Shown in pieces: positions 5,515-22,168 of a stretch of 38,108 nucleotides of DNA. Each line of letters opens with the position of its first letter. Positions within the stretch are counted from its first letter, which is position 1. The notes under the pieces are model-generated. The model was not told where the DNA came from. It saw nothing but the letters and a program-made list of their open reading frames with translations, and ran no database searches. Source of the stretch: a virus. The stretch is taken from positions 1 to 38,108 of the IMG/VR virus record IMGVR_UViG_3300031841_003318; one strand, 5' to 3'. The position numbers and the translations under genes are program-made.

Positions 5515-5845
5515 AGAGATATACCCCTAGTTATTTGTGAATTTTAAAGTCAGTTATAGCTACTTCCCCATTAAAGCCTATCAAGCTGCCAATATTTCTA
5601 TTGGTGGGTACTACATCAGATCAACCAAGTATCGGCTAACCTATTTCAAACAATGTATTGATAAATTACATTGAGTCCATTAATTCGGGACTAACAATCA
5701 ATGACAAGCTCAGTATCCATTTGTTAGATTCATAATCTGCCAAACTAGACAATGCTGTTTAAAGCCTTTAGCTATAGGCATTCAATTTAATTCTTTGCGG
5801 GACAGAAGATTAAACTTCCAAAAAGACTGTTTATATGGGAGCATT
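5515..5845. other. Non-coding gap downstream of the structured RNA
   Basis: This stretch lacks a credible reading frame on either strand. It contains two perfect short inverted repeats, CCAATA/TATTGG (5589-5604, 4-nt loop) and CAATGTA/TACATTG (5651-5673, 9-nt loop), plus the near-palindromic operator-like sequence at 5764-5779. It could be leader RNA for the 122-aa gene or hold binding sites; an origin of replication is possible but no iterons were seen. Confidence 0.4.
5758..5785 (-). promoter_or_regulatory. Promoter-like element with a palindrome filling its spacer
   Basis: On the minus strand, TTGAAT (5785-5780) is followed by exactly 16 bases, GCCTATAGCTAAAGGC (5779-5764), then TTTAAA (5763-5758). 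The 16-mer is a palindrome apart from one symmetric mismatch pair, so an operator may fill the space between -35 and -10. The -10 match is only 4/6. It would drive the operon starting at 5514. Confidence 0.4.
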
Positions 5846-5940
5846 AAAAAAGGCGCTTAGAGAATATGTGACCTCTGTTGATAGAGGGGCGAAATTCGAT
5901 AGAGAAAAACCCACCAAAGATCACACATTTCCTAAACACC
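5846..5940 (-). terminator. Intrinsic terminator of the small RNA (long stem plus U6)
   Basis: The 3' arm of the 20-position stem ends in GCGCC followed by TTTTTT on the minus strand. The loop is large, so termination may rely on the lower GC-containing part of the stem. Alternatively it is a regulated attenuator for the genes from 5514 on. Confidence 0.5.
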
Positions 5941-5978
5941 CTTTATCAAATTTGCTTTTTAAACGGCTACCACACCGC
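5846..5978 (-). ncRNA. Candidate phage small structured RNA with intrinsic terminator
   Basis: A promoter at 5985-6012 would start transcription near 5978. About 38 nt later, bases 5940-5921 pair with 5871-5852 to give a 20-position stem with 19 pairs (15 Watson-Crick, 4 G-U) and one A-C mismatch. It encloses a 49-nt apical region that contains a CCTCT/AGAGG hairpin (5887-5872). The stem is followed at once by six U residues (5851-5846), as in a terminator. The G-U pairs exist only in the minus-strand RNA, agreeing with promoter and terminator direction. A 23-codon frame (5928-5857, MCDLWWVF...) lies inside the stem but has a poorly spaced ribosome site. Role unknown: a decoy, antisense or 6S-like RNA, or an attenuator leader. 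Confidence 0.6.
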
Positions 5979-5984
5979 AATTAA

Positions 5985-6012
5985 ATTATACCTCATTCTT
6001 GGTTATTGTCTA
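5985..6012 (-). promoter_or_regulatory. Strong sigma70-type promoter for the non-coding region
   Basis: On the minus strand TAGACA (6012-6007, 5/6 consensus), a 16-bp spacer and TATAAT (5990-5985, 6/6). The -35 box overlaps the last codons of the 66-aa gene ending at 6003. No coding gene starts within 450 nt downstream, which supports an RNA product. Confidence 0.65.
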
Positions 6013-8968: not shown

Positions 8969-11221
8969 CTAGCCTTGGAAATTGACTGTTATTGTTCTGG
9001 TTGATCCTAATCTATTTTTTATTAGCAGGTTTCCGCCGGTGAACCAGACATTCAAGTCGCCATCTACATCATTGTTAACTGTGCCGCCTGGATTAAAGTT
9101 AGCAGCGGCCGCTGCCCCAAAGTTCAAAGCGCCAGAGCTGTCAATTGATACAACTCCACATGAAAGCCTACTTAAAGTGGTTGTAATAGTCGCCATACCC
9201 CTATTATCAACATTTGGAACCTCTATAGTCATGGTCGCATCATCAGCTAGAGATTGAGAGAATACATGGCTCCCAGTATTTGTCGTATTATTGCCATTTT
9301 CGTCCACGCCTGTAATTCTACTTTCCAAAGAGGATACGCCGTTATCAGTGGTAGCTGTCACGCCGATTGAAGGGGTCATCTGAAGAGTTGGTTTGGCCAA
9401 ACTTGCCGGCGTCGTTGTCTGGTATGTTGGCTTAACTGCTGTGGATGCGTGCGTAAATTTATCCACTTTTATTATAGCGACAGACTTTAAATCTGCACTA
9501 GACGCGAATCCAAACAATCCGTTTGCGGAATCTATCTCTTTAACATAAACGCTGTCGACGTTAGCATAAAAAACACCGGTACTGGTTAATGCGGGACACG
9601 ACATAAAAGACGAATGAGAGGCAGTTGATATAACGTTAGTGACATTAATAACACTATCAAAGGTCGAAGTTAAATCGGACTGAGATGCGGTTATAACTGG
9701 CGTTGCCATGGAGCCTGTTGTTGTATTATCATGTATTGTTACGTCTGAAACATTGCCTATTCTTGGTTTGATTAATGTTCCAGCAGCAAATATGCTTATC
9801 GCAGATATAGGGCGAGCAAAGGTTGCTTCCCCGCTAGCAGAATCTTCATACAAGAAAGTTGGCCCGATAACATCGCCGCCATGTATCTGCAAATCAATCT
9901 CGACTGATGCGCCGGTAATCCCTGCTATATTCCGATAAACAGTTGGCGCAATAACGGTTGTTACATCGTTTTGGGTTTTAATAGCCCTCCCTTTGCAATT
10001 CTTAAAGTAGCAATTTGAGATGTTTGCCGTTGTTCTTCTTACCAAGTTAGATGCTACATTGGCAAAAACTTTTAATCCATCTGCATCTGTGTTGTTTGAG
10101 TTGTCAGTGGTTTCGCCGTTAGTAATATCAATAAAGCTGCATCGGTCTATCAAGGTGCTTTTTACATCAAACGTGTTAAGTAGTGTAACCGTTAATCCGC
10201 TTGTGCCAGTGACGCCTGGATTTCCGTTTCCAAGAGCTCTTGTATGGTTTTTGAATTCAGTTCCGGCAATATTTACCTCTTCAAATCCGCCCCGAATAAA
10301 GAGTCCTGCATTGCCATTGTTTCCAGTGTCAACATAGGAGTCATTAAAGGACCCGCCATTAATTACAACCCTGCCGGTGCTCTCTTGATTGGCAAAGATG
10401 TAAAACGGATACCCTGAAACACCCCCGCCAGAAACATTAACCCCATCAATTGTTAAAGAAAATCCAGCGCAATCGATAGCAACATTGTCTTCTCGACTAC
10501 CGTTCGCAACATCCGTCAAAAGACCTCCACCACCAGAAGCCTTAAGTGTTGTATCTCTCGCTAATGTGATAGTGGCTGTAGTTTTTATTTTGAATGTTTT
10601 CGAGCAAAAATCTACAACCCCATTATTATCTATGATATGAACAAGAGCCGCCGAATTGTCAACGTCGCCCTCTACCAACCCCCATTGGCTTGCTAAAGCT
10701 ATGCCAGCATCTCTCAACACGAAACTAAAGCTTAACGTGTCATGGGCAATAATATTATAGCCGTTAGCCGTTCCTGTTCCGGCGATAGTGTCGAATATTC
10801 CGTTAGCCCTTTCCGCTACCATATAAGCCCCGTCTGGGCTACCTACCGCTGTTAAGTTGGCCACGGTGTCAATGTTTTGTATGTCATCACTAACATCCGA
10901 GGTTAACCCTTGAGAATAAACTAGCCCAGCTGCATCAGCTATATTTACGTAAGCAGCAGAAGTTCCACCAAGAGCATTTAAATCGATAACCCCCTCACCA
11001 ACTAAGACAAACTCATTTCCAGAAGCGTCCGATAGATTGGGGCTGTTGTTTGTTAATGGATCTACGCTTACCGTTCCAACGGTGCCAAGAGAGCGCCATC
11101 TCGCTGCGCCTTTATCGCCGGTGGTTGTATAACCTTCGAACGAGATTATCTGTCCAGCGCTATAGCCTGACGGGTTTAGATGGTTATTAATGAAAGATAC
11201 CGCAGTGTCAAATTTAATCAT
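8969..11221 (-). CDS. Tailspike / parallel beta-helix receptor-binding protein
   Basis: The 750-residue protein has a short N-terminal adaptor (FDTAVSFINNHLNPSGYSAG, then YTTTGDKGAARW), a motif common at the start of phage tailspikes just before the pectate-lyase-like beta-helix. Beyond it, serine/asparagine/glycine-rich repeating strands (for example SLTIDGVNVSGGGVSG, about 255-270) suggest a right-handed beta-helix, and a beta-rich C-terminal domain ends with RTITVNFQG. It probably binds and degrades host surface polysaccharide. It is coupled by ATGA to the Ig-like gene. It lacks its own head-binding domain, which appears in the 386-aa gene two positions upstream. Confidence 0.8.
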   Translation of the reverse strand: MIKFDTAVSFINNHLNPSGYSAGQIISFEGYTTTGDKGAARWRSLGTVGTVSVDPLTNNSPNLSDASGNEFVLVGEGVIDLNALGGTSAAYVNIADAAGLVYSQGLTSDVSDDIQNIDTVANLTAVGSPDGAYMVAERANGIFDTIAGTGTANGYNIIAHDTLSFSFVLRDAGIALASQWGLVEGDVDNSAALVHIIDNNGVVDFCSKTFKIKTTATITLARDTTLKASGGGGLLTDVANGSREDNVAIDCAGFSLTIDGVNVSGGGVSGYPFYIFANQESTGRVVINGGSFNDSYVDTGNNGNAGLFIRGGFEEVNIAGTEFKNHTRALGNGNPGVTGTSGLTVTLLNTFDVKSTLIDRCSFIDITNGETTDNSNNTDADGLKVFANVASNLVRRTTANISNCYFKNCKGRAIKTQNDVTTVIAPTVYRNIAGITGASVEIDLQIHGGDVIGPTFLYEDSASGEATFARPISAISIFAAGTLIKPRIGNVSDVTIHDNTTTGSMATPVITASQSDLTSTFDSVINVTNVISTASHSSFMSCPALTSTGVFYANVDSVYVKEIDSANGLFGFASSADLKSVAIIKVDKFTHASTAVKPTYQTTTPASLAKPTLQMTPSIGVTATTDNGVSSLESRITGVDENGNNTTNTGSHVFSQSLADDATMTIEVPNVDNRGMATITTTLSRLSCGVVSIDSSGALNFGAAAAANFNPGGTVNNDVDGDLNVWFTGGNLLIKNRLGSTRTITVNFQG

Positions 11222-21418: not shown

Positions 21419-22168
21419 TCAGCTTAAATTATCAATAACATTAAAGTTAATTGTTCTGACGTCAGCAAATTCAGGGGTGCTAGATGTTGTTACAATAGAT
21501 ATAGTCACAGTTTGATAGCCGCATAAAGTAGCAAGCGCCCTATAAAAAACCTCGGTACTGTCGTTTTGTATTTGATCGCCAGAAATAGTTAGCCCATTAC
21601 TCGATTTTATCTCATAACTGGATATTGTTTCACCTTCACCAAGGAAATTAGCCCACGACGCAATAAAGCTATCTATCGTGTTTAGTTGCATTTTTTCTGT
21701 TGAGCAAGATATAGGCGCATTAGGAGATTCTTTGTAGAATCTACGCCATTTCTGACCCCATCTAAAGTTATTCCCAGAGCCTACTGGCTGTCTGTCTGGG
21801 TAGTTTGTTTCATTAACGACTGCTGTCCTCGCGCTAGCATTAGACAGGGCGCCAGAAGCTTGTTTTTTTAAATCCATCAATGCGGGAGATGCTTGAGAGT
21901 TTTTACCAAACATTGGTATTAATCTCACTGCAACGTTAGTTTTCATCATTTGATTGAATTGAGGTGGTATCCCGCTGGTGGTGCTCGGGTCTGGCTCATC
22001 CTCAAAAAGATAGTTGATGCAGATGTTGCGGCTTTCATATTCGGCCGCTATTTCTTCCATCTTGATTAGCGCCTGTTGCTTTTCTTTTGGGGTGGGATCA
22101 ACAGTTAAGCCGCTAATCCTCAATTCATCAAAAGCCCCAATAAGGAGATCATCTTTAGTCGCTATCAT
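21419..22168 (-). CDS. Tail accessory factor (gp4-like) fused to an Ig-like domain
   Basis: Residues 1-140 follow P22 gp4: a helical DDLLIGAFDELRISGL opening, AAEYESRNICINYLF, then TNYPDRQPVGSGNNFRWGQK (about 122-141). This resembles gp4's Y-P-S-R-M-P-T-G-S-G-N segment. gp4 closes the portal after packaging. Residues 150-249 add a beta domain (NTIDSFIASWANFLGEGETI, ... VTISIVTTSSTPEFADVRTI) resembling phage Ig-like modules. gp4 proteins are about 165 residues, so the extra domain is an extension, perhaps for decoration or host binding. Confidence 0.75.
   Translation of the reverse strand: MIATKDDLLIGAFDELRISGLTVDPTPKEKQQALIKMEEIAAEYESRNICINYLFEDEPDPSTTSGIPPQFNQMMKTNVAVRLIPMFGKNSQASPALMDLKKQASGALSNASARTAVVNETNYPDRQPVGSGNNFRWGQKWRRFYKESPNAPISCSTEKMQLNTIDSFIASWANFLGEGETISSYEIKSSNGLTISGDQIQNDSTEVFYRALATLCGYQTVTISIVTTSSTPEFADVRTINFNVIDNLS

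Follow-up and report, generated by a model that had tools for sequence, protein, structure and literature searches.

The window analysed here, IMG/VR virus record IMGVR_UViG_3300031841_003318, positions 1 to 38,108, to which all window coordinates refer, carries a 133-base element on its minus strand (5978-5846) that was previously without annotation in the window phage. Judged from sequence comparison, the element probably forms the 5′ domain in a noncoding RNA gene of several domains; this gene bears transfer RNAs (tRNAs) and travels among marine phages. Within the window phage, only the 5′ domain is established with certainty; there is no tRNA part, and any 3′ part that it may have has diverged past recognition. 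That the element is read as a 5′ domain, and not as an RNA standing by itself, is owed chiefly to a long-range helix (helix i), which in relatives joins the linker to the 3′ region. The features are given below in 5′ to 3′ order (nt, nucleotides; bp, base pairs).

6012-5985, minus strand: sigma-70-type promoter, TAGACA-16-TATAAT (TAGACA 6012-6007, TATAAT 5990-5985), an 11/12 match
5978-5941, minus strand: leader, 38 nt
5978-5963, minus strand: P1, the 5′ hairpin (GCGG ... CCGU); 100% of cells paired, with compensatory changes
5972-5967, minus strand: g, the P1 loop, with pseudoknot partner g′ at 5884-5879; from the permutation test
5953-5945, minus strand: f (AAAUUUGAU), a linker strand with pseudoknot partner f′ at 5900-5892; from the permutation test
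5944-5939, minus strand: h (AAAGGG), alternative partner CCCUCU 5888-5883, rivalling the rod base and c; 4 bp in the window, weak
5941-5915, minus strand: b, the ascending arm of the rod; from fold and covariation
5912-5909, minus strand: c (GGGU), partner GCCC 5890-5887; helix 90% paired, last pair UG/CG/UA
5900-5892, minus strand: f′ (AUCGAAUUU), a strand in the apical loop; from the permutation test
5884-5879, minus strand: g′ (CUAUCA), immediately ahead of the descending rod arm; from the permutation test
5877-5852, minus strand: b′, the descending arm of the rod; from covariation
5851-5846, minus strand: U6 tract, terminator-like by sequence
5845-5515, minus strand: 331-nt noncoding stretch in the place where relatives have the 3′ domain, preceded by a tRNA or a tRNA-like stem

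In helix i, the bases following P1 (the linker) reach over the rod, the U-tract and the tRNA to pair with the beginning of the 3′ region. Examples of the pairs are ACUUGAAAG:CUUUCAAGU, GUGAAAG:CUUUCAC, GCUUGAAG:CUUCAAGC and GCUGAAAG:CUUUCAGC, the last three exemplifying independent changes. With the 3′ segments cut by hand and kinship among the sequences reduced, not modelled, the mean score over 26 loci was 16.1 compared to 12.2 for permuted partners (standard deviation 0.53; 0/50000), and a non-redundant set gave a like result. Since helix i spans the U-tract and the tRNA or acceptor stem, the 5′ domain, the tRNA and the 3′ domain would be parts of one RNA. The original prediction had described a free-standing small RNA; its own promoter and structured minus-strand RNA were confirmed, but in relatives the element is tied via helix i to the 3′ region, and two lineages, HS5 and K68, are without the U-tract.

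A blastn search with distant settings against annotated phages returned unannotated matches in Vibrio phage 1.054.O and Seahorse, and a weak one in Pseudoalteromonas phage HS2. Further members were added by pattern scans of IMG/VR and then by blastn using the new members. A covariance model built from seven sequences gave 35 matches in the 38 loci searched, corresponding to 28 distinct sequences, all with E <1e-7. Pattern matches in Photorhabdus, Acinetobacter and others were dropped, as the covariance model did not confirm them. The homologous loci are mostly in Vibrio and Pseudoalteromonas phages, none being annotated as RNA or present in Rfam, and the surroundings of the element vary widely (ahead of terminase, between head genes, among early genes). 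Rfam scans at gathering and E-value thresholds matched no family to the element, in keeping with the earlier remark that no family was recognised, and literature searches returned no description of this RNA. Among bacterial genomes of the order, 1 of 395 matched, a contig of a Psychromonas metagenome-assembled genome (MAG) with terminase and portal-like genes, which argues for a phage RNA and not a common host RNA. The element was not found in a plasmid collection.

The same set of promoter, P1 hairpin, rod and U-tract was seen again in 27 further distinct sequences, and we conclude from this that the element is more than a chance arrangement. A TATAAT-like -10 box lies 6-8 nt ahead of P1 in most homologues, and every distinct member of alignment A5 (28/28) has a U-tract of five or more U. 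In L003, L005, L006 and L091, an inverted repeat (CCCACC...GGTGGG) across the promoter -35 region is a possible operator; L084, L087, L106 and L109 carry an additional small hairpin (e.g. TCCTTCGGGA) between the -10 box and P1. Vibrio phage NF (MN812722) has two different element copies, at 10693-10823(-) and 21748-21866(+), the second covered by L087; the flanks of the two copies suggest differing 3′ types. HEARO RNA (Rfam RF02033, 105.8 bits) was detected just upstream of the element in L008 (4535-4763, minus strand), and in L092 (V039C) an apparent recent deletion has left the promoter region alone.

Folding of 5978-5846 on the minus strand gave -46.5 kcal/mol (z -5.6, 0/200 shuffles), compared to -23.8 kcal/mol (z -1.4) for the plus strand. 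Only the minus strand folds well, which supports the direction assigned earlier. The stem originally proposed, in which 5940-5921 pairs with 5871-5852 at 19/20 positions, was recovered; its extent was too short, the rod reaching the apical region with about 25 pairs plus a base extension. In the model alignment, which is fitted to the tested structure and favours it somewhat, 95.0% of cells were paired (shuffled 80.3%) and both-sided changes occurred in 19/30 pairs; sliding the partner as a control lowered pairing to 40-52%. The three rod helices were 88-99% paired, with both-sided changes at 17/21 pairs, and P1 varied among homologues as GCGG:CCGC, GUGG:CCAC, GUAG:CUAC and GCAG:CUGU. The rod is supported by this covariation; conservation of the stem with compensatory changes in related phages had been named beforehand as a test.

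For helices f and g, which are absent from the covariance model, partners were permuted among the sequences as a test. For g, in which the P1 loop pairs with six to eight bases directly ahead of the descending arm, the mean score was 16.2 compared to 12.2 permuted (standard deviation 0.5; 0/20000; 28 sequences). For f, pairing of the linker with the apical loop in its 3′ half, it was 21.4 compared to 15.1 (standard deviation 0.6; 0/20000). Both predicted helices cross the rod, yielding a double pseudoknot. A rod with a large apical bulge, loosely likened to 6S-type or decoy RNAs, had been an incomplete picture of this fold, as the linker and the loop of the 5′ hairpin pair into that bulge. In diverged members, g crosses the rod in the same way, and so it does in L116 (Vibrio phage K68, about 1008-1150), where the 5′ region has an unrelated sequence and no U-tract. 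Helix h, which competes with the rod base, is conserved across relatives (AGAGGG:CCCUCU versus AGUGGG:CCCACU, 0/20000). A further candidate, helix a of the linker with g′, was rejected, its extension past the h core being unsupported (1649/20000).

Downstream of the U-tract, tRNA genes were found at a distance of 0-5 nt in Seahorse, vB_VaM_H2, 1.085.O, IMG/VR contigs and the Psychromonas MAG contig, the types directly behind the tract being Trp, Ser, Met, Gly and Val. Most relatives have either a tRNA gene or an acceptor-like stem after the U-tract. Many loci without a tRNA have a 6-8 bp stem behind the U-tract resembling a bare acceptor stem (e.g. GUGUCUG...CAGACACA), most single cases of which are not significant alone. 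Beyond the tRNA or acceptor-like stem follows a conserved noncoding region of about 300 nt common to groups of phages, after which comes a variable gene (phosphoesterase, DNA methylases, HNH). As sole query, the 3′ region reached many more phages, and all eight loci inspected by this route carried, at the 5′ position, either a rod or a pseudoknot (8/8), four of them recognised by the covariance model and four by helices only. In HS5 and K68, neither the crossing fold nor the 3′ region has been lost. Some covarying helices were seen in the 3′ region of one subgroup; overall, this region is conserved and its structure is supported in part.

In the window, the promoter TAGACA, 16 bp, TATAAT was located at 6012-5985 on the minus strand as originally claimed, as were the 38-nt leader and the U6 tract, and transcription would start near 5978. 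Two promoter-like sites of equal quality, that of the element included, occur in the first 20 kilobases of the window. The intergenic gap holding the element, put earlier at 490 nt, is present and measures 488 nt between coding sequences (6002-5515). No tRNA was found in the window, and no tRNA-like stem was detected in place of the tRNA of relatives. The next open reading frame (ORF; 5514-5146, 122 amino acids) had no relative in viral contigs. Past it, the best match in the window to the 3′-domain profile covers 29 nt (5152-5124, minus strand, E 0.057; GGTCTAATGACCCCTATTAACTAAAGGAA / GGTCTAATGACCCCTATTAACTAAAGG) and weakly resembles the 3′ end of the 3′ domain of relatives. In L106, a motif similar to 5152-5124 stands both before and after an HNH-like ORF.

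Several observations weigh against a multi-domain RNA gene. Helix i of the window has 5 bp only and is weak, the profile search of the window for the 3′ domain of relatives was negative, and the permutation tests make no correction for kinship of the sequences. When only nested pairing is allowed, the rod is favoured over f by 11-24 kcal/mol, and f would therefore either coexist with it as a pseudoknot or form in the nascent RNA only; simultaneous formation of f and rod is judged possible on geometric grounds. A first covariation scan of the pooled 3′ alignment returned no helices, probably due to chimeric or misaligned types, and single-sequence folds of the 3′ region were not clearly above shuffles (z -0.85 for window 5515..5845, -0.10 and -1.78). 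In L082 (BT-1011), the element is kept with a truncated tRNA and, apparently recently, a deleted 3′ domain. Finally, the U-tract directly behind the GC-rich rod base is kept in 28/28 A5 members, which can be taken as an argument that a short RNA ending there is of importance; besides the full RNA, a 133-nt form ended in this way may exist.

In the arrangement favoured here, the promoter a few bases ahead of P1 would drive a transcript that folds P1 and a rod of roughly 25 bp, with the P1 loop-g′ and linker-apical loop helices laid across the rod. At the rod and U-tract, a fraction of the transcripts would terminate as a stable RNA about 133 nt long, and those reading through would become the full RNA, about 450-700 nt in length. 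The latter could be a structural RNA made during infection, with the tRNA either displayed in its junction or cut out. Termination at the U-tract, the long and short forms, and any function are what we infer from this arrangement.

Known RNAs were compared. The relatives of the element resemble GOLLD and ROOL in organisation (PMC12286853). GOLLD, which forms a homo-multimeric RNA cage, is likewise phage-borne and near tRNA genes, with a tRNA sometimes between its 5′ and 3′ regions; element loci are ordered 5′ domain, tRNA or acceptor stem, 3′ domain, the window being without the tRNA. The element RNA differs in being shorter (about 450-700 nt) and in its 5′ domain, a double pseudoknot with a U-tract at its end. 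ROOL, of unknown function, shares with it the phage-borne state, the vicinity of tRNAs and multiple pseudoknots (PMC12286853). The covariance model of GOLLD (RF02032) gave 0 matches at E<=1 in 15 records and that of ROOL (RF03087) matched 0/15 records, control genomes giving none with either model, and because of this no membership is claimed. From its sequence, the RNA appears organised like GOLLD and ROOL but unrelated to them. Bacterial 6S RNA also has a long rod; in the element, however, pseudoknots fill the apical region and no central bubble is closed on both sides, and the Rfam 6S models did not match it. The late leader '6S' RNA of lambda (pR′-tR′) is a short phage transcript that lies between a promoter and a terminator and precedes other genes, with protein Q acting at promoter DNA, whereas in the element the RNA structure is the conserved feature. 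T4 species 1 and 2 RNAs are stable and likewise have their genes next to those of tRNAs, the likeness being one of description only.

An RNA that stops at the U-tract and acts alone as a 133-nt pseudoknot, in trans or as a decoy, on a host or phage target, with the tRNA and 3′ region as mere neighbours transcribed from elsewhere, is the most serious competitor, and we consider it unlikely. The conserved promoter and U-tract, the strong fold, the retention of the element in BT-1011 and the unrecognisable 3′ part in the window are what it would lead one to expect; helix i, the joint occurrence of 5′ and 3′ regions in the eight loci reached via the 3′ region alone, and the lineages HS5 and K68 lacking the U-tract speak for the multi-domain gene instead. 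For the window phage alone, with its weak helix i (5 bp), the RNA may be free-standing. Still less probable is a conditional terminator, in which h or f in the nascent RNA would block the rod base and allow read-through to the tRNA, the 3′ region and the cargo gene, the rod terminating otherwise. The covariation of h, the tRNAs directly behind the U-tract and folds of shortened transcripts, in which f preceded the descending arm in 2/3 members, are consistent with such a switch, but no input by a ligand, a ribosome or a protein can be seen, homologues do not conserve the leader ORF, and two lineages do without the U-tract.

Two further proposals concern the start of the transcript. HK022 put RNA, which comprises two stem-loops in about 70 nt (PMC9378689), mediates antitermination in cis via the beta′ zinc-binding domain, and a 5′ structure of this kind would stay on RNA polymerase so that downstream terminators, its own included, are ignored. 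The element resembles put as a highly structured phage RNA at the very start of its promoter's transcript, and it precedes untranslated tRNA genes; nevertheless, its fold and length differ, put has no rod closed by a U-tract, and no series of downstream terminators was demonstrated, making this explanation very improbable. A tryptophan leader-peptide attenuator, raised earlier on account of a 23-codon ORF with two adjacent tryptophans, is practically dismissed by the comparison: the ORF does exist in the window, but 18/28 homologues have no ATG ORF of >=12 codons, and paired tryptophans in any frame occur in only two other homologues.

Taken together, the homologous loci show that a conserved RNA family is hidden in unannotated gaps of well-known phage collections, and the element offers a reason for the presence of tRNA genes at that spot. 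More tentatively, it could be a new class of large phage RNA, in which the double-pseudoknot 5′ domain and the 3′ domain close a tRNA or acceptor-stem junction and which displays, stores or protects phage tRNAs, or multimerises. The only phage-borne, tRNA-linked large RNA classes met with in the sources consulted are GOLLD and ROOL, both of unknown function. If true, this would be a third such class, unrelated to them and residing in small, culturable Vibrio and Pseudoalteromonas phages, where the function of such RNAs would be testable by deletion.
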